From a virus: DNA of 45,464 bases. The DNA lies in IMG/VR virus record IMGVR_UViG_3300025896_000042, positions 1 through 45,464 of that record, one strand, 5' to 3'. The translations under genes were made by a program, and so were the position numbers. Below are positions 28,766-45,262 of the stretch, piece by piece. The notes under the pieces were generated by a model. It had not been told where the DNA came from and did not search any database. It was given only the letters and a program-made list of their open reading frames with translations. Position 1 is the stretch's first letter. The number at the start of each line of letters is the position of its first letter.

Positions 28766-29782
28766 TTAGTCCTTCTTGGTCAGGGCGGATTCCAGTTCGT
28801 CGGCGCAGCTTTTAAGGGCCTTACAAAGCGATATAGAGCGATGACGCCCCACAGAGGCCGACTCTCTGCGCCACTTCTCCACCAGCCCCAGCACCTTCTC
28901 GCCGGGCTGGTCGGGCTGCTTGCCGTAGAACTTCTCGCACGGCTGGCCGTCGTGGCACAGCTTCACCATGTCGTCGCCCTCGGGCTGGGGCGCGGCGGTG
29001 CTCTCGCCGTGATGCCACAGGAAGGCACAGTAGGCCGCCACGTCGCGGGGGTCGCCCTTGGCAACGTGCTCGACCAGCTTTCGGCGGCACTCGTCCATCC
29101 ACGACGGGTCGGCCCAGCCATCGCTGTAGCCGTACTTCCGCTCGGCAGACGCCAGCTTCTCGGCCAGTGCCGTGGCGAACCTGGCGACGAGGTTGACCGT
29201 GTGCGGGTGCAGGCCCTCCGGCACCACGAAGAACTCATTGCCGCTATCGTCTGGCTGGGGCGCGGGGCGGGTGATTGAGCGCACCGTGTCCACAACGCTA
29301 CCGCCCGGCTCCAACAGGCCAGCGTTTTGCAGCGCCTCGGCTACCATGTCGTAGGCGTCGGCCTTGATGGATTGCTCCGTTTCCTCGGGCTGCTGGGGCG
29401 CGGGGCGGGCCGCCGACCCGCGGGGTGGGTGGAGCCTCTGGAAAGCCACGAGTGCCGCTGCATATGCAGCCTTTCGGTCAGGCCACGCCGCGTTGAACGC
29501 TGTGCTGCACGCTTGATAGGTGGCAGCCGGAGCGTAGCCGTTTCCGTCCGTCAGGTGGTCGCACTCAAACTCGACCCACGCCGACTGCCTTTCGTCGTGC
29601 GCCTCCTCCCCCGCCTCGTCGCGCAGGGCGGCGATGTCAGGAAGCAGCTCGAACAGTTCGCGCCAAACCTCGCGCACCAACGAAGCCGCACGCCCGCGAA
29701 GCTCGGTATTGCACAAGTGGGAAAGCTGCGCCGTAGCCAGCGTTAGCCTATCCACCGCCTGCTGCCTGTTCATCGTGGTCAT
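28766..29782 (-). CDS. Ead/Ea22-like accessory early protein
   Basis: This 338-residue protein is assembled from separate modules: an N-terminal helical part starting MTTMNRQQAVDRLTLATAQ, a middle SAWVEFECDHLTDGNGY segment, a linker of Pro/Gln-rich sequence, and a conserved block KYGYSDGWADPSWMDECRRKLVEHVAKGDPRD + AAYCAFLWHHGEST found in many Ead/Ea22-like phage proteins. Function unknown; these genes are non-essential early accessory genes in lambdoid phages. It overlaps the methyltransferase gene upstream by 4 nt. Confidence 0.68.
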   Translation of the reverse strand: MTTMNRQQAVDRLTLATAQLSHLCNTELRGRAASLVREVWRELFELLPDIAALRDEAGEEAHDERQSAWVEFECDHLTDGNGYAPAATYQACSTAFNAAWPDRKAAYAAALVAFQRLHPPRGSAARPAPQQPEETEQSIKADAYDMVAEALQNAGLLEPGGSVVDTVRSITRPAPQPDDSGNEFFVVPEGLHPHTVNLVARFATALAEKLASAERKYGYSDGWADPSWMDECRRKLVEHVAKGDPRDVAAYCAFLWHHGESTAAPQPEGDDMVKLCHDGQPCEKFYGKQPDQPGEKVLGLVEKWRRESASVGRHRSISLCKALKSCADELESALTKKD

Positions 29783-31407
29783 GCCGCTCTCCTGGCTTCG
29801 GTGATTCGGTCGAGGTTGGCTTCAGCCAGCGCGCGCAGCGGCGGCGGGCTAACGCTGTTGCCGACCATGCGCACGGCGTGGGTGCCGTTGATGGGCCGGC
29901 CGTCGGCGGTGCGGTCGATCACGTAGTCGGCCGGGAAGCCCTGCGCGCGGTACAACTCCGGCGGGCGCAGCATGCGCAGGCCGATGTCGACGATCACGTA
30001 GGGCGTGCCGCGGATCGACACGGTGACCAGGGCGATGCGGTCGCGGGTGGTGATGGTGTCGAGCGGCGCGCGCAGATCCCCCCACTGGCCGCCCTCGCTG
30101 TAGTAGCGGATCAGGAACGCGGCCACGCGGAGCGCGCCGGCCTCCTGCTCGGGCGACAGCTCGCCGAGCACCGCCTCGACCAGCTGCTGCTGGCTGCCGC
30201 TGGCGGTGGTGGTGGACATGGGCTCGCGCAGATCGCGCCCGCCGCCGGCGTAGAAGCCGCCGTTGGCCTGCTCGAGGAAGGCGGCCACCAGCGCGTGCTT
30301 CACGCCACCGGCCACGACCGTGCCCAGCGGCTGCCGGATGTCGAGCGAGCGCGGCTGCTGGCCCTCGCGTTCGCCGTAGCCGGTCTGCACGAGCGTCGGC
30401 GCCACCACAGCGAAGTGGCCGCCCTTCACGCCAGCGCACTGGGTCCGCAGCGGCTCCTGCGCCGACCAGGTGCGGCCGTTGCTGGCGTTGGCGAACTCGG
30501 TCAAGAAGAACGGTTCGGCGGCCTGCAGCACGTGCTTGTGCACGCCCTTGGCGATGCGGCGCAGGGTCGCCTCGGCCAGCGGCCGGGAGCGGGTGAAGAT
30601 CGAAGGGCAGGGGATGCCGAAGTCGATGCAGTCGGCGGCCGTCACCAGCGGCTTCAGCCCGGGCCGCTTGCCGTGGGTCGGCTCGGGCCAGGCGATGGCC
30701 TCGCCGTCGCGGCGCGCCAGCAGGAAAAGGCGCTCGCGGCTGGTGCCGGCGCCGTAGTCGCTGGCCACCAGCTTGCGCCACTGGACCTGGTAGCCGTAGC
30801 CGCGCAGGGCCGCCACGAACTGCCCCCAGGTACGGCCGGCATGGCGTTTGTCGGGCACGAGTTGCTGGTTCTGGATAGGAACGCGCTCGCCGGGCCCGGC
30901 CACGCTGCCGTCCATCTTCAGCACGCGGCCGGTTTCCCGGCACCGCTTCGCCACCAGCGGGCCCCACGTCAGGATCTGCCAGACGTTCTCCAGGCTGATG
31001 ATCCGCGGCGGCTGGCCGGCCCGGCTGAGCTGGCCCACCCACTTCAGCACCACCCACGACAGCGCGCGGGTCTTCCGGCTGCGCGGCTGGCCGCCCTTCG
31101 CCTGGCTGAAGTGCGTGCAGTCCGGCGAGGCATGGAACCAGCCGACCGGCCGGCCCGCCACGTCCTTCACCGGGTCGGCGTGCCAGATGTCCTCCCGGTG
31201 GTGGATCGTGAGCGGGTGGTTCGCGGCGTGCATGCCGATGGCCCACTCGTCGTGGTTGTAGGCGAGTGCCGGGTCGATGCCAAGCGCCTGCTTCAGCGCC
31301 TCGCTGGCGCCGCCGCCACCGGCGAACAGGTCCACGAGGATCTCGTCGCCGCGCAGGCGCGAAACCTGCGGGGGCGGGAAGGGGAAGCGGTGCGAACCGT
31401 CAGCCAT
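29779..31407 (-). CDS. DNA (cytosine-5) methyltransferase
   Basis: This 542-residue C5-cytosine methyltransferase is larger than the usual 330-420 residues. The SAM motif DLFAGGGGASE is at 26-36, the catalytic motif SPDCTHFSQAK carries the nucleophile Cys97 (the variant D-C replaces P-C), motif VI is LENVWQI (140-146), motif VIII region RERLFLLARR, and motif X VGNSVSPP is near the C-terminus. The central part is long, so target recognition probably spans about 300 residues. GGCAGGAGA precedes the ATG. With no restriction partner, self-protection against host restriction is the likely role. Confidence 0.92.
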   Translation of the reverse strand: MADGSHRFPFPPPQVSRLRGDEILVDLFAGGGGASEALKQALGIDPALAYNHDEWAIGMHAANHPLTIHHREDIWHADPVKDVAGRPVGWFHASPDCTHFSQAKGGQPRSRKTRALSWVVLKWVGQLSRAGQPPRIISLENVWQILTWGPLVAKRCRETGRVLKMDGSVAGPGERVPIQNQQLVPDKRHAGRTWGQFVAALRGYGYQVQWRKLVASDYGAGTSRERLFLLARRDGEAIAWPEPTHGKRPGLKPLVTAADCIDFGIPCPSIFTRSRPLAEATLRRIAKGVHKHVLQAAEPFFLTEFANASNGRTWSAQEPLRTQCAGVKGGHFAVVAPTLVQTGYGEREGQQPRSLDIRQPLGTVVAGGVKHALVAAFLEQANGGFYAGGGRDLREPMSTTTASGSQQQLVEAVLGELSPEQEAGALRVAAFLIRYYSEGGQWGDLRAPLDTITTRDRIALVTVSIRGTPYVIVDIGLRMLRPPELYRAQGFPADYVIDRTADGRPINGTHAVRMVGNSVSPPPLRALAEANLDRITEARRAA

Positions 31408-36234: not shown

Positions 36235-36462
36235 TCAAGCGGCGTGGTCGGGAGCAATCGGGGCGGGGATGCCAGCGAACGCAGCGACCCAGTCGTCGGC
36301 CTCGCGGTGCGCCAGGCACGGGCGGCCAAGCTCGGCGCACAAGGCGCACGGGGCCGGCTCGACGGGGCGCAGTTCGGTGAGGTGGCGGGCCATGGAAATC
36401 AGGCAGGACTCGGCGAACTCGCGCTCGCGGACGGACTCGGCCATGGAGTGGAGGTCAGTCAT
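36235..36462 (-). CDS. Small Cys-rich protein
   Basis: This 75-residue protein has its ATG at 36462, inside the stop of the Gly-Tyr repeat gene (ATGACTGA overlap). It contains CALCAELGRPCLAHR (Cys39, Cys42, Cys48, His51 by counting), a Cx2C..Cx2H arrangement that could hold zinc. The longer in-frame extension through the hexanucleotide repeat (an Ala-Thr run) is rejected as a false start. Function unknown. Confidence 0.68.
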   Translation of the reverse strand: MTDLHSMAESVREREFAESCLISMARHLTELRPVEPAPCALCAELGRPCLAHREADDWVAAFAGIPAPIAPDHAA

Positions 36463-36841
36463 CGCCGTAGCCGTAGCCGTCGCCGTAGCCGTCGCCGTCG
36501 CCGCAGCCGCAGCCGTAGCCGTCGCCGTCGCCGTAGCCGCAGCCGTCGCCGTCGCCGTAGCCGTAGCCGTAGCCGTAGCCGTAGCCGTAGCCGTAGCCGT
36601 AGCCGTAGCCGTAGCCGTAGCCGTCGCCGTAGCCGTAGCCGTAGCCGTAGCCGTAGCCGTAGCCGTAGCCGTAGCCGTAGCCGGCCGCCTTCTGGATGTA
36701 GTGCTCATCCGGGAAGTCGGACGCCTTCGCGGAAATCAAGCCCTTGTGCCGCGCAATGAAGGACTTGACCCCATCAATGCAGGCCCCGGCGTCGAGCACG
36801 TCGCAGACGGTGACAACCTCCTTGAAGGCCAGCGCGCTCAC
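36455..36841 (-). CDS. Protein with Gly-Tyr dipeptide repeat tail
   Basis: This 128-residue protein has a small globular N-terminal domain (residues 1-53: MSALAFKEVVTVCDVLDAGACIDGV, then FPDEHYIQKAA) and a tail of 37 Gly-X dipeptides (Gly-Tyr mostly, some Gly-Asp and Gly-Cys) plus a final Asp. The start GTG at 36841 has a GGGAGG ribosome site and overlaps the upstream stop (GTGA); a TTG at 36853 also exists. The N-terminal part keeps normal codon use, so this is a true gene with an expanded repeat. Gly-Tyr tails resemble low-complexity, sticky or condensate-forming sequences. Confidence 0.78.
   Translation of the reverse strand: MSALAFKEVVTVCDVLDAGACIDGVKSFIARHKGLISAKASDFPDEHYIQKAAGYGYGYGYGYGYGYGYGYGDGYGYGYGYGYGYGYGYGYGYGYGDGDGCGYGDGDGYGCGCGDGDGYGDGYGYGDD
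36461..36682 (-). repeat. Hexanucleotide repeat (GGCTAC)n, 37 units
   Basis: 222 bp of tandem hexamers GGCTAC (Gly-Tyr) on the minus strand, with interspersed GGCGAC and GGCTGC variants concentrated in the downstream (C-terminal) third. The unit is two codons, so copy-number change alters tail length but not frame. Confidence 0.95.
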
Positions 36842-39356: not shown

Positions 39357-39439
39357 CTTTCTGTTCGTCGTGTCCATGGCGCCCATTCTCTGGCCCAGCA
39401 GTGGGAATCAGGGGGAGCGCGCCGTCCCGGAGGTTCCCG

Positions 39440-40201
39440 GTGACACGAATCGAACGAATCGGCAACGCCACCCTTTACCTTGGCGACTGCCGCGAAATCC
39501 TGCCGACGTTGCCAAAGGTGGACGCGGTGATTACGGACCCGCCCTACGAGGCCGAGGCGCATGGCGCTGGTCGCAGGCTGCTGGGTCGCACGGATGAACT
39601 GGCCGACAAGCGCACGCGGGAGATTGAAGGAGCGCCGCTGGATTTCGAGGCGATGACGCCCGAGCTGCGCGCCGCCATGTGCGAATGGGCTGCGGCGAAC
39701 TGCGCAGGCTGGATGTTGGCCTTCTGCCAAGCCGAAGCCGTGGCCGTTTGGAGGGAGGCGATGGAGCGAGCCGGCCAAAAGTGGCGCCGCGCGATGGTGT
39801 GGGTTAAGCCTGATTCGTCGCCGCAACTTTCCGGTGATCGCCCCGCTCAAGGCTTCGAGAGCATCTCTGCGGCTTGGTGCGGAGAGGGTGGTAGCAAGTG
39901 GAACGGCGGCGGCAAACGCGGAGTGTTTGTCTACAACAAGCATGACCCAGGAAACGGCCACGGCGGAGCCCGGAATGAACACCCGACGCAGAAGCCGGTC
40001 GCGCTGATGAAAGACCTTGTAAGCCTGTTCTCAAACCCCGGAGAGCTCGTGCTCGACATGTGCGCCGGCTCCGGCGCCACTGGTATCGCCTGCCATGACC
40101 TGGGCCGGCGGTTCATCGGCATCGAGAAAAAGCCTCAACACTTCGAAACCCTTTGCCGCCGCATAGAGGACGCGCATCGCCAGGGGAGGCTGATCGCATG
40201 A
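39440..40201 (+). CDS. DNA amino-methyltransferase (adenine-N6 or cytosine-N4)
   Basis: This 253-residue protein has DPPY at 33-36 (ITDPPYEAEA) as catalytic motif and a SAM-binding motif LVLDMCAGSGATG (about 203-215) near the C-terminus, so the order is catalytic first, SAM second (beta class). The target-recognition part lies between. GGAGG at 39429-39433 places the start at GTG 39440. First enzyme of the right operon, ahead of the CII-like gene. Probably protects phage DNA or regulates phage promoters by methylation; no cognate nuclease is present. Confidence 0.88.
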   Translation: MTRIERIGNATLYLGDCREILPTLPKVDAVITDPPYEAEAHGAGRRLLGRTDELADKRTREIEGAPLDFEAMTPELRAAMCEWAAANCAGWMLAFCQAEAVAVWREAMERAGQKWRRAMVWVKPDSSPQLSGDRPAQGFESISAAWCGEGGSKWNGGGKRGVFVYNKHDPGNGHGGARNEHPTQKPVALMKDLVSLFSNPGELVLDMCAGSGATGIACHDLGRRFIGIEKKPQHFETLCRRIEDAHRQGRLIA

Positions 40202-40739: not shown

Positions 40740-40966
40740 TGGCCGCCCTCACTGGGATCGACGGGAACACCACCATCCCCCTGCGCCAGGAGCGCGCCTT
40801 GGCCAAGTTCCGCGCCGGCGCCCGTGACGCCATCGCCGACCTGCAGGCCCACTTCGCCAACGGCGTGCACCTGACGGCCGAGCAGCTGGCGGACTACCGC
40901 CGCGCGCGCGCCGCGTATGCCGGTTCCGGTTCCGCGCCGTTCACCGACGGACCGAGCGCCGCCTGA
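40739..40966 (+). CDS. Hypothetical small early protein
   Basis: This 75-residue protein is chained by TGATG on both sides. N-terminus MAALTGIDGNTTIPLRQERAL is followed by a helical segment (AKFRAGARDAIADLQAHFANG, then TAEQLADYRRARAAY) and a short disordered tail. No family recognised. Confidence 0.68.
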   Translation: MAALTGIDGNTTIPLRQERALAKFRAGARDAIADLQAHFANGVHLTAEQLADYRRARAAYAGSGSAPFTDGPSAA

Positions 40967-41727
40967 TGTCGAACCGGCTCATGGACCTGGCCTGGCCGCT
41001 GCCAATCCCGCCTTCGCCGAAGGTGGTGCTGGTGGCGCTGGCCGACCAGGCGGACGACTCCGGCACCTGCTGGCCGTCCATTCCGTCGCTGTGCCAGCGC
41101 ACCAGCCTTGGCCGCACGGCGGTGATCGAAGCCGTGAAGTGGTTGGAGAAAGCCGGCCTCGTTTCGGTGTCCCGTGACTCCCGCTGCAACCGCTACGTCG
41201 TCACCCCGGCGGCGTTCAACCAGTCCGCCTGCCGGACTATTGAACAGTCCGCTAGCCGGACTAGTCCGCCTGCCGTACCAGTCCGCCTGCCGGACGGCGA
41301 CCAGTCCGCCTGCCGGACTGACCAGTCCGCCTGCCGGACTACACCAGTCCGCCTGCCGGACCCTAACCCCCAAGAACCCTCAATAACCCCCAAGAAAGCA
41401 ACCCCCAAGACGCGACCTGCGATCGCGTTGCCGGAGTGGTTGCCCGAGGAAGCCTGGGCGGACTGGGTGGCCCACCGGAAGGCGTCGAAGCACCCAATGA
41501 CCCCGAAGGCCGAGGAGCTTTCGATTGCCGGTCTGGGCCAGCTGAGGGAGCAGGGTCACGACCCGGTGGCGGTGATTCACCACGCGATCAAGTCGGGCTG
41601 GCGGGGGCTGTACGCGCCGCCGGTCAGGGCCGGGCCGAATCCGGGCAACCACTCCGCCGCCGCCAACTTCCGAGGAAAACGCTATGACGCAACCCCTGAC
41701 GACAAGCTACCCCCTGGCCTCCGCTGA
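40966..41727 (+). CDS. O-like replication initiator with embedded iterons
   Basis: This 253-residue protein has a winged helix at about residues 10-85: PIPPSPKVVLVALADQADDSG, then CWPSIPSLCQRTSLGRTAVIEAVKWLEKAGLVSVSRD (split), the HTH_36-like replication-initiator type. A middle linker (about 86-150: QSACRT and PVRLPD repeats) is encoded by seven 17-bp iterons, as in lambda O, where the origin lies inside the gene. The C-terminal part (about 150-253) has ALPEWLPEEAWADWVAHRKA and HDPVAVIHHAIKSGWRGLY, a typical O-like helicase-loader contact region. The DnaC-like gene overlaps its 3' end by 44 nt. Confidence 0.87.
   Translation: MSNRLMDLAWPLPIPPSPKVVLVALADQADDSGTCWPSIPSLCQRTSLGRTAVIEAVKWLEKAGLVSVSRDSRCNRYVVTPAAFNQSACRTIEQSASRTSPPAVPVRLPDGDQSACRTDQSACRTTPVRLPDPNPQEPSITPKKATPKTRPAIALPEWLPEEAWADWVAHRKASKHPMTPKAEELSIAGLGQLREQGHDPVAVIHHAIKSGWRGLYAPPVRAGPNPGNHSAAANFRGKRYDATPDDKLPPGLR
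41222..41362 (+). repeat. Seven palindromic iterons, probable replication origin
   Basis: Seven copies of a 17-bp unit AGTCCG-CCTGC-CGGACT start at 41222, 41246, 41263, 41280, 41303, 41324 and 41346. Each has 6-bp inverted arms around a 5-bp centre. Copies 1, 5 and 6 are exact; copies 2 (CTAGC centre), 3, 4 and 7 have one or more changes in the centre or right arm. Spacing between starts is 17-24 bp. They lie in the linker-coding part of the O-like gene, the position of lambda ori. Confidence 0.85.
41365..41409 (+). repeat. Three AACCCCCAAG direct repeats beside iterons
   Basis: AACCCCCAAG occurs at 41365-41374, 41385-41394 and 41400-41409, directly following the iterons. The top strand is nearly free of G and T, unlike its surroundings. 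It may be a second protein-binding site or the melting region of the origin. Confidence 0.6.
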
Positions 41728-42663: not shown

Positions 42664-43031
42664 TGTTCCGCTCCCGAAGCACCGGCAAGCCAACGGCCGC
42701 CCAGGTGGCGCGTTTCGAGGCGATTCACCGCGGTGGGTGCATCGCCAGCCGCAAGCGCGGTCAGGTCGTGCCCTGCGAGATCCACCACCTGACGGTCGGC
42801 GGCCTGCACGGCCAGAAGCGTCGCGGCCACGACTTCACCATCGGCCTGTCGCCTTGGCACCACCGCGGCGAGCCGATGTTCGGGCTGTCGCACGCGGAGT
42901 GCGAGGCGCGTTTCGGCCCCAGCTACGCCCGGCAGCCGCGGCGCTTCCGTGAGGTGTTCGGCCGCGACGACGAGCTGCTGGCCTATCAAAACGAACTGCT
43001 GGCCCGCGTGGCCGCACTGGAGGACGCATGA
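42663..43031 (+). CDS. Ref-like HNH nuclease
   Basis: This 122-residue protein has the pattern of the phage P1 Ref family of RecA-dependent nucleases: CIASRKRGQVVPCEIHHLTVGG, GQKRRGHDFTIGLSPWHHRGEP. The Cys pair, the IHH motif (His41/His42 by position), a Gly-His-Asp segment and the final PWHH form an HNH-like site. The C-terminal helix FREVFGRDDELLAYQNELLARVAALE could be a coiled coil. Ref cleaves single-stranded DNA bound by RecA. In this right operon a repair or recombination role is likely. Confidence 0.82.
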   Translation: MFRSRSTGKPTAAQVARFEAIHRGGCIASRKRGQVVPCEIHHLTVGGLHGQKRRGHDFTIGLSPWHHRGEPMFGLSHAECEARFGPSYARQPRRFREVFGRDDELLAYQNELLARVAALEDA

Positions 43032-43564
43032 CCCTGCGCCTGACCATCGGCATCGACCCGGGCCTGACTGGCGCCATCGCGGTTGTGGCGGACGGCGAGC
43101 CGGCTGGCTGCCACGACATGCCGACCCGCGCGCGCCGCCGCGGCACCGGCCGCGAGATCGACGCCTACCGCCTGATGGACCTGCTGCGCACGATCATGCG
43201 CAACCACCAGGGCGCCGCGGTGACTGTGGTGCTGGAGGTCGTCGCCGGCTTCACCGGCCGGGCCGCGAGCCGGTCCTTCGCCTTCGGGCAGGGCGACGGC
43301 ATGGTGCGCGCGGTGCTGGCCTGCCTCGGGCTGGAGCCGGTCGAGGTCTACCCGGTGACCTGGAAGGGCTACTTCGGTCTGCTGGCGCCGCGGGTGCCGA
43401 AGGGCGCGCCGAAGCCGCCGGCGCCGGGCAAGGACGCGAGCCGCGCGCGCGTCGTGGCGCTGTTTCCCAACCACGCGCTGCCCTTCCTGCGGGCCAAGGA
43501 CGACGGCCGCGCCGAGGCGCTGCTGCTGGCGCTGTGGGCCATCCAGACGGAGGCCGCGGCATGA
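43028..43564 (+). CDS. RuvC-like Holliday junction resolvase
   Basis: This 178-residue protein has an RNase H fold with catalytic acidic residues at Asp10 (GIDPGLTG), Glu70 (VVLEVV) and the C-terminal pair Asp158/Asp159 with Glu163 (KDDGRAEA), the RuvC arrangement. The helix-rich middle matches the family, and the region GAPKPPAPGKDASRARVVALFPNHA is a DNA-facing basic loop. It resolves recombination or replication junctions before packaging. ATGA overlap at both ends. Confidence 0.86.
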   Translation: MTLRLTIGIDPGLTGAIAVVADGEPAGCHDMPTRARRRGTGREIDAYRLMDLLRTIMRNHQGAAVTVVLEVVAGFTGRAASRSFAFGQGDGMVRAVLACLGLEPVEVYPVTWKGYFGLLAPRVPKGAPKPPAPGKDASRARVVALFPNHALPFLRAKDDGRAEALLLALWAIQTEAAA

Positions 43565-44571
43565 TCCACATCGGCAACTGCCTGGACATCCTTCCGACGC
43601 TGCCGGCCGAGTCGGTGCAGACCTGCATCACCAGCCCGCCGTACTTCGGCCTGCGCGATTACGGGGTGGCTGGCCAGCTTGGGCTGGAAGCCACGCCGCG
43701 CGAGTTCGTGGACGCCATGGTGCGCGTGTTCGCTGAGGTGCGGCGCGTGCTGCGCGATGACGGAACGCTATGGCTTAACCTTGGCGACAGCTATGCCGGC
43801 GGCGGCTGTGGCAGCCGCGACCCGGTGAAGTGGCCGAAGCAAAGCCGCAACGACCACCGCGTCGTGCACGCCAAAGGCAACACCGGCCTGCGCCGAAAGA
43901 ACCTGATCGGCATCCCATGGCGCGTCGCGTTCGCGCTGCAGGCCGACGGCTGGTATCTGCGGCAGGACATCATCTGGCACAAGCCGAACCCGATGCCGGA
44001 GAGCGTGCGCGACCGCTGCACGAAGGCGCACGAGTACCTGTTCCTGCTGAGCAAGTCGCCCGGCTACTACTTCGACGCCGAGGCCATCGCTGAGCCGCCG
44101 GCACAGGCGAGCATTGACCGCCTGGGCCAGTCCAGCCTAGCCGAGCAGGCCGGTAGAGACCGCGTGCCCGGTAAGACCAACGGCCCGATGAAGGCCAAGC
44201 CTCCGCGCTTCGGCGGGAGCAAGTACGGCGACAACAGCGAGAACCCCGACCACCGCAGCAGCGGGAACGACTGGGAGGGCAGTTCATCGGGCCGAGCCAA
44301 AAAGCGCAGCGTCTGGACCGTGCCGACGGCCAAGTTCAGCGAGGCCCACTTCGCCACTTTCCCCGAGCGCCTGATCGAGCCGTGCGTTCTCGCCGGCAGC
44401 CGCCACGGCGACTTGGTGCTCGACCCGTTCATGGGCGCGGGGACCACGGCCGTCGTCGCCGAGCGCCTAGCGCGCCGATGGGTCGGGTGCGAACTGAACC
44501 CCGAGTACGCCCGCATCGCCGAGGCGCGCATCCGCGCGATCCAGCCCGGCCTGGCACTGGGGGCCGCATGA
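43561..44571 (+). CDS. DNA amino-methyltransferase (TSPPY type)
   Basis: This 336-residue protein has TSPPY at 24-28 (CITSPPYFGLRDYG) as catalytic motif IV, a target-recognition region (about 60-270) with ENPDHRS and the SAM motif LVLDPFMGAGTTAVVAERL near residues 284-303, then a final helix. SPPY suggests cytosine-N4 specificity (adenine-N6 cannot be excluded). It is the third DNA methyltransferase of the genome and again stands without a nuclease partner. Start in an ATGA overlap with the RuvC-like gene. Confidence 0.9.
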   Translation: MIHIGNCLDILPTLPAESVQTCITSPPYFGLRDYGVAGQLGLEATPREFVDAMVRVFAEVRRVLRDDGTLWLNLGDSYAGGGCGSRDPVKWPKQSRNDHRVVHAKGNTGLRRKNLIGIPWRVAFALQADGWYLRQDIIWHKPNPMPESVRDRCTKAHEYLFLLSKSPGYYFDAEAIAEPPAQASIDRLGQSSLAEQAGRDRVPGKTNGPMKAKPPRFGGSKYGDNSENPDHRSSGNDWEGSSSGRAKKRSVWTVPTAKFSEAHFATFPERLIEPCVLAGSRHGDLVLDPFMGAGTTAVVAERLARRWVGCELNPEYARIAEARIRAIQPGLALGAA

Positions 44572-44804
44572 CCCCCGAACTCGCCCTGCTGATGCTGCGC
44601 GAGAACGCCGGCAAGCACACCGTCTGGCTGATCGACCGCGGCCTTGGCCCGGAGCTGACCACCAGCATCCCCTGCGGCCGCACCGCCGCCTACTCGATGG
44701 GCCGCTACACGCCCGACGCCATCCCGACGCTGGCCGAGGTCGCCGACGACCTGATGTACGGCCTGCAGCAGCTCAAGCGCCTGACCAACCGGAGAGCCGC
44801 ATGA
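44568..44804 (+). CDS. Hypothetical small protein
   Basis: This 78-residue protein has a helical N-terminus (MTPELALLMLRENAGKHTVWLIDRG), a central TSIPCGRTAAYSMGRYTPDAIPTL and a C-terminal helix EVADDLMYGLQQLKRLTNRR. ATGA overlaps on both sides place it firmly in the operon. No family recognised. Confidence 0.7.
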   Translation: MTPELALLMLRENAGKHTVWLIDRGLGPELTTSIPCGRTAAYSMGRYTPDAIPTLAEVADDLMYGLQQLKRLTNRRAA

Positions 44805-45262
44805 CCGACCTGACCCTGGCCGCCTCGGTGCGGCAAGCCGAACACGACGCCATGGCCAGCGATGTCGAGCGGTTCCTCGCGGCCGGCGGCGAGATCGAGC
44901 GCATCCCGCGCGGCGCGATGGTCGAGGCGGGGTGGAAGCCGCGCCAAGTGATCAACCCGCAGGCCATGACCGCCACCCGCCGCCGGGCCGAGATCGAGGA
45001 ACGGGAGGCGCGCAAGAAGGCCGAGGCCGCGATCCCTTACGGCCCCAGCGCCAGTGGCCGCCCGCCCGGTGTCGCCCCCGGCAGCCAGAAGGCCCGCATC
45101 CTCGAACTGCTCGCCGCCACCCCGGAGCAGAGCGCCCGCCTGCTTGCGGCCCAGGTCGGCACCAGCCGTGAGGTCGTGAACCAGCACCTGGCCATCCTCC
45201 GAAACAAGGGCCTGGTGAGCGGAAAAGGCCCGCGGCACGCGATGGTCTGGAGCCTGACGTGA
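44801..45262 (+). CDS. Winged-helix DNA-binding protein
   Basis: This 153-residue protein has a C-terminal winged helix (about residues 95-153): SQKARILELLAATPEQSARLLAAQVGTSREVVNQHLAILRNKGLVSGKG, of the type seen in MarR/ArsR-like or late-operon regulators. The N-terminal about 70 residues are helical and Lys/Arg-rich. Its position late in the right operon, upstream of terminase, suits a late-transcription regulator. Confidence 0.68.
   Translation: MTDLTLAASVRQAEHDAMASDVERFLAAGGEIERIPRGAMVEAGWKPRQVINPQAMTATRRRAEIEEREARKKAEAAIPYGPSASGRPPGVAPGSQKARILELLAATPEQSARLLAAQVGTSREVVNQHLAILRNKGLVSGKGPRHAMVWSLT

Follow-up and report, generated by a model that had tools for sequence, protein, structure and literature searches.

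The window analysed here, the whole 45,464-base stretch of a virus record, carries lambdoid-type genes. Its plus strand encodes terminase, portal and tape measure proteins as well as O-like and DnaC-like replication proteins, and a leftward cluster encodes a RecE-like exonuclease, a weakly Gam-like protein, a KTSC protein, a Gly-X repeat protein and a DUF6948 protein (Table 1). Inside the O-like gene, AGTCCGCCTGCCGGACT is repeated some six or seven times, every copy forming an inverted repeat (GTCCG/CGGAC), and an A- and C-rich stretch follows; this array looks like the iterons of a lambda-type origin within an initiator gene. Three genes matching DNA methyltransferase families and a weak match to Ren-like exclusion proteins are also found in the window.

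Table 1. Features of the Gly-X locus and other annotated elements of the window.
Feature	Position	Strand	Details
Gly-X repeat protein gene	36455..36841	minus	GTG start at 36841, TGA stop 36455-36457, 128 aa
N-terminal GAC domain, residues 1-53	36683..36841	minus	Motif DxLDxGACIDGVxxF; alignments; AlphaFold2 pLDDT 87.6
37 hexamers encoding (Gly-X)37, residues 54-127	36461..36682	minus	X = 25 Tyr, 9 Asp, 3 Cys
GTGA overlap of Gly-X start codon and DUF6948 stop	36838..36841	minus	Sequence
DUF6948 gene (PF22253), 91 aa	36838..37113	minus	Pfam 82.6 bits against a cut-off of 27, E 2.2e-23
75-aa ORF downstream of the Gly-X gene	36235..36462	minus	ATG at 36462-36460 overlaps the Gly-X gene end
AGTCCGCCTGCCGGACT array	41219..41362	plus	Inside O-like gene, 40966..41727
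DNA methyltransferase family match	29779..31407	minus	
DNA methyltransferase family match	39401..40201	plus	
DNA methyltransferase family match	42949..44571	plus	
Weak Ren-like match	44801..45262	plus	phrog_142, E 1.3e-4

The original prediction placed a phage protein with a coding, low-complexity Gly-X tail at exactly these coordinates, without giving the strand, and its description of a normal 53-residue domain extended by 37 Gly-X units holds. The tract is the strongest repeat of the window (36464-36683; period 6, 36.7 copies, 93% matches in Tandem Repeats Finder). All 37 of its Gly codons are GGC, a codon that accounts for 76% of Gly codons in the confident window genes, and codon usage alone would produce this uniformity with P ~4e-5. 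Because the Gly-X start codon overlaps the DUF6948 stop, the GTGA sequence suggests coupled translation of the two genes. At the far end of the gene, the 75-aa downstream ORF is seen only in a near-identical contig (L009) and is not kept with the pair among the relatives tested. Within 36235-36708 of the minus strand all three forward frames stay open through the repeat, and the next frame reads (Ala-Thr)n and continues stop-free into this ORF; a ribosomal frame change within the tract would fuse both.

Searches with the 53-residue N-terminal domain, as had been proposed for this protein, recovered 14 and then 25 IMG/VR loci in overlapping sets, and the protein has at least 13 distinct relatives of the same architecture. 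Homologs lacking the tail, which would have spoken against the original prediction, were looked for and none was found: all relatives examined whose gene is complete carry (Gly-X)n at their end, with Tyr, Asp, Asn or Ser at most X positions. In metagenome assemblies, where some repeat collapse is possible, the arrays of near-identical contigs are shown to differ by whole hexamers, as L009, which is the same phage as the window (99.98% identity over 5,004 nt, with 400-nt flanks 100% identical on both sides), has a tail shorter by 72 nt or 12 hexamers, and the tails of L035 and L036 measure 129 and 291 nt (162 nt apart) between identical flanks. The expectation that length changes would preserve the reading frame is thus borne out. 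Tail length is not always in flux, since a single 246-nt tail is common to six contigs (L015-L020). No convincing cultured relative of the N-terminal domain was found in 50,697 phage records, where another GAC domain was also searched, and no relative was confirmed in the bacterial collection. The GAC domain returned no significant fold match, and neither it nor the Gly-X protein belongs to a family in Pfam, PHROGs, NCBIfam or PADLOC; sub-threshold TrAA12 and serine-rich matches were rejected as low complexity.

In some Gly-X proteins a short leader precedes the tail, in others a GAC domain does, and still others have the tail in front of a C-terminal domain, of which there are several. One of these C-terminal domains, with the pattern AFWRSDxxGxPANGG...LHATxxPxKWKGxRxWVVAL, is found at nine loci (L092, L104, L122, L145, L152, L153, L165, L187 and L191) and matches no Pfam, PHROG or NCBIfam family when tested with L104. 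A second, the LTG[SA]CxxG domain, follows Gly-X tracts at eight loci (L060, L169, L192, L205, L234, L258, L278 and L292).

The original prediction treated the repeat as an oddity of one compact genome and overlooked its neighbor. Our analysis instead finds a widespread and almost obligate partnership: DUF6948 lies directly upstream in 20/20 relatives tested, while the other neighbors vary. The pairing was evaluated with a GC-rich and an AT-rich DNA pattern, which located Gly-X tracts in viral contigs independently of any protein domain; the tracts found this way are a sample, taken among the matches listed. Counting DUF6948 as upstream when a homologue ends no more than 600 nt away on the same strand, and considering tracts with at least 500 nt of upstream sequence, 110 of the 125 mixed Gly-X tracts listed from viral contigs have the partner, compared to 4.4% for random placement at the same loci. 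In bacterial genomes DUF6948 accompanies 23/25 mixed Tyr/Asp tracts versus 0/33 pure Gly-Tyr and 0/36 pure Gly-Asp tracts, and in the AT-rich set it is found at 32/41 versus 1/65. The homologues were collected by an iterated profile, and Pfam's own model confirms 62 of the 66 tested.

The pairing also holds in the reverse direction. Among 83 DUF6948 loci similar to two DUF6948 proteins, together with six annotated phage collection records, a Gly-X ORF lies within 900 nt downstream in 82 of the 84 loci with room for one, a count to be read with the facts that both query proteins came from Gly-X loci and that some loci are contigs of the forward test; the two exceptions are still Gly-rich. A cleaner but small test used Pfam's curated DUF6948 model on about 1,670 bacterial genomes, where at most about 1% of the genomes in any group have the family. 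Five of the new cases include sufficient sequence beyond DUF6948, and each of them shows a Gly-X gene 32-53 nt downstream. The earliest start codon available to the Gly-X frame overlaps the DUF6948 stop in 107 of 117 pairs. At one locus (L050), DUF6948 and 43 Gly-X units share one open frame, the sole same-frame fusion among 296 hits; since another Gly-X tract, preceded by a similar leader, lies just downstream, the sequence suggests that this fusion arose by duplication of the Gly-X gene and an indel. Taken together, comparative sequence data indicate that the Gly-X gene almost certainly occupies the second position in a phage cassette of two genes, adjacent to or overlapping the DUF6948 gene that precedes it. 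The pair is found in phages and prophages of Proteobacteria, Firmicutes, Bacteroidota, Planctomycetes and others, at GC contents from about 22 to 70%. In Iodobacter phage PhiPLPE (L413, 1161-1409), a Gly-X ORF that is unannotated in the GenBank record lies directly behind the DUF6948-like phiPLPE_84.

The DUF6948 structure predicted by AlphaFold2 from 66 rows has a pLDDT of 95 and five strands in the order b-b-b-a-b-b-a. Foldseek searches of the PDB return Sm, LSm and archaeal SmAP proteins almost throughout the top list (best E 5.9e-3, probability 1.00), and the listed VIA-align rows are likewise nearly all Sm/LSm (best Z 6.9, rmsd 3.0 over 63 residues). OB-fold SSB proteins are absent among the matches listed by either program. 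A Z below 8 may reflect a chance arrangement of the fold without kinship. At the sequence level, the 66 DUF6948 members match no LSM family in Pfam, a comparison with five approximate Sm sequences gives an hhalign probability of 1.3%, and no PDB sequence match was found. DUF6948 is confidently predicted to be a small beta-barrel most like Sm/LSm proteins. We do not assign it to the Sm proteins proper, as no recognisable Sm1/Sm2 signature or LSM profile match was found, and we call the fold Sm-like only, because such a Z can arise without kinship and the sequence profiles do not link the families.

By analogy with Acinetobacter Hfq, whose plan likewise joins a barrel to a Gly-rich tail, we propose, as a tentative reading that we rate at somewhat under an even chance, that DUF6948 forms a core that binds nucleic acids and that the Gly-X protein provides, in trans, a disordered, acidic tail rich in Tyr. 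The core, perhaps a ring, would be made from the same message as the Gly-X protein through coupled translation, and the intrinsically disordered tail would bind the core or the substrate of the core and tune the binding and release of RNA (or DNA), much as the Hfq tail acts in cis. Optional domains of Gly-X proteins, such as the GAC domain, would serve as adaptors, and the pair may be expressed early, as its operon with recombination genes would imply. The in-frame DUF6948-(GX)43 fusion at L050 counts for this core and tail arrangement, although it may be an indel product. The neighboring genes implicate DNA recombination no less than RNA, which counts against the proposal.

The original prediction offered DNA packing, host shut-off and phase separation of replication centres as possible functions. 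Of these, phase separation is close to a less likely but serious alternative, a role as a condensate or assembly scaffold. Here Tyr residues would act as stickers and Gly, Asp, Asn and Ser as spacers, and self-association of the Gly-X protein would concentrate DUF6948 and its ligand at sites of phage replication or recombination, a function compatible with the core and tail reading. The composition of X (41% Tyr, 32% Asp, 10% Ser and 10% Asn) and the length of the tracts (15-106 units, median 35) fit such a scaffold, and E. coli SSB is reported to condense under the control of Gly-rich linker regions and aromatic residues (PMC12143593). Simple self-association is opposed by the strong acidity of the tails, with ten Asp ascribed to the tail of the window, and short tracts of 6-12 units also exist.

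The genes around the pair also keep a direct DNA role in play, in which DUF6948 would bind ssDNA and the Gly-X protein, in the role of the Gly-rich acidic SSB tail, would recruit or regulate phage recombinases. The window pair clusters with the RecE-like exonuclease and the weakly Gam-like protein, Erf and SSB genes adjoin the pair CDS0033/CDS0032 in Pectobacterium phage Ymer, RecE lies near it in PhiPLPE, and Erf, Sak4, RecT and primase families are among its neighbors elsewhere. Such an accessory function is nonetheless improbable in our estimation: the fold matches listed are Sm/LSm rather than OB-fold SSB, Ymer has its own SSB beside the pair, and recombination genes are in any case common in early phage operons. 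Slightly more improbable still is a decoy in host interaction, by which the variable tail would engage or evade a host factor (e.g., a defence protein or nuclease) with DUF6948 as its carrier or stabiliser. The quick turnover of the array, the exchangeable extra domains and location in the early region would suit a decoy, but the pair has no match to PADLOC models and no known target, and phages whose hosts are unrelated share one tail composition, which speaks for a biophysical role of a general kind.

The remaining alternatives concern the repeat as DNA. In 13 tails recruited through the N-terminal domain, with the tail itself not used as bait, the mean within-tract diversity at positions 1-3 is 0.000, 0.000 and 0.017 for the Gly codon and 0.472, 0.122 and 0.037 for the X codon. 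Synonymous sites are near-frozen inside each tract, yet they differ from tract to tract: the Gly codon is GGC in some, GGG in others (L012 and L013) and GGT in L031, and AT-rich phages follow the same dipeptide rule with GGA or GGT combined with NNC or NNT. Because synonymous sites are near-invariant while X remains mixed, these sequence comparisons show that the amino acids of the tract, with Gly at every second residue and a mixture of Tyr, Asp, Asn and Ser at X, are under selection. We read this pattern as fast array turnover that homogenises neutral sites while selection keeps X mixed, and we find a moderate excess of longer duplications within the X strings (p <= 0.05 in 33% of 135 arrays). 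An RNA-structure role for the tract was rejected, as its RNA folds little better than shuffled sequence (z -1.9, with 10/200 shuffles folding as well) and the codons differ between phages; Rfam has no match in the window.

It is very improbable that the tract is a neutral microsatellite or an assembly artefact, i.e., a hexamer prone to slippage that is open in a Gly-X frame by chance. Arrays do change in whole units, and bacterial chromosomes do contain pure GGCTAC runs with incoherent flanks, but the Gly-X frame and the composition of X are the same in phages of GC 0.22-0.70 that use other codons, variation is restricted to X-codon positions (0.47 at position 1 versus 0.02-0.04 at synonymous sites), the DUF6948 context is fixed and is absent from pure tracts, and the 246-nt tail is identical in its six contigs. 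The codon-position bias and the fixed DUF6948 context bring the neutral hexanucleotide model close to refutation. The pure GGCTAC runs themselves, which are long, have incoherent flanks and lack DUF6948, occur at L293, L299, L310, L319 and other actinobacterial loci, in chromosomes of Streptomyces, Nocardia and others, and are a separate class of hexanucleotide microsatellite. A diversity-generating retroelement that writes variable X codons by adenine mutagenesis of an NNC template has next to no chance of being correct, for although X codons vary at the first two bases with the third fixed, like the target codons of such elements, block duplications within tracts are in excess, and adenine-directed mutagenesis is excluded, and the model effectively refuted, because most GGA tracts keep the A at position 3 (e.g., 59/59, 51/51 and 43/43) and the window record, which may be a fragment, has no reverse transcriptase match (PF00078).

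In conclusion, because the pair has been kept together across many phyla and a wide GC range, it very likely does something useful. The core and tail reading extends to a broader picture, which we regard as possible but doubtful, of a phage-specific two-component system for handling nucleic acids, comprising a DUF6948 core, a fast-evolving Gly-X tail in trans and interchangeable adaptor domains, distributed over many phyla. DUF6948 is not mentioned in the literature searched, which lay mostly outside subscription journals, so that an earlier mention is possible; a string search of the literature for the Gly-X repeat found nothing, and other searches gave analogues only. The two-gene unit has apparently not been described before, and the rules of pairing and composition seem to be new, as does the prediction of an Sm-like fold. 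Neither gene of the pair has a known function, and the repeat gene is unannotated in at least one named phage (PhiPLPE). With hundreds of natural dipeptide-repeat proteins that have a known partner, vary in length and obey fixed rules of composition, the pair would allow direct tests, in laboratory phages that carry it, of how disordered tails function and of whether tail length is important.

A comparison with known systems shows both similarities and disparities. The window partner is a clear member of Pfam DUF6948 (PF22253), a family without a described function whose definition omits the Gly-X partner. The leucine-rich repeat protein of Riemerella phage vB_RanS_CRP6 (CRP6_000055, annotated as "ribonuclease inhibitor") has the LTG[SA]CxxG domain in common with some Gly-X proteins, and this domain resembles the GAC domain of the window (hhalign probability 76%, E 2e-5). 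In CRP6_000055 the domain stands behind leucine-rich repeats where Gly-X proteins have Gly-X, the repeats being unrelated, and no DUF6948 was found beside the gene, unlike Gly-X genes; it is as if unlike repeat modules had been exchanged on one domain. Bacterial SSB, with its OB-fold core, Gly-rich linker and acidic tip (PMC12143593), is comparable as a small barrel of nucleic-acid type with a disordered, Gly-rich acidic region, and the pair sits in a recombination-gene context. The predicted fold of DUF6948 is a different one, and the tail of the pair is encoded by a separate gene and follows a strict dipeptide repeat. In A. baumannii Hfq, an Sm core is followed by GGFGGQ repeats and an acidic tip, and these Gly-rich repeats and the tip alter RNA affinity and autoregulation (PMC11617691), an arrangement to which we liken DUF6948 and its Gly-X tail. 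Unlike the pair, Hfq is one polypeptide, whereas DUF6948 and Gly-X are separate overlapping genes (with one fusion); the repeat units differ, and the likeness of DUF6948 to Hfq and Sm proteins rests on the predicted fold, without a sequence link. If the Sm-like reading is true, the pair would amount to a phage equivalent of Hfq whose tail is encoded by a gene of its own.
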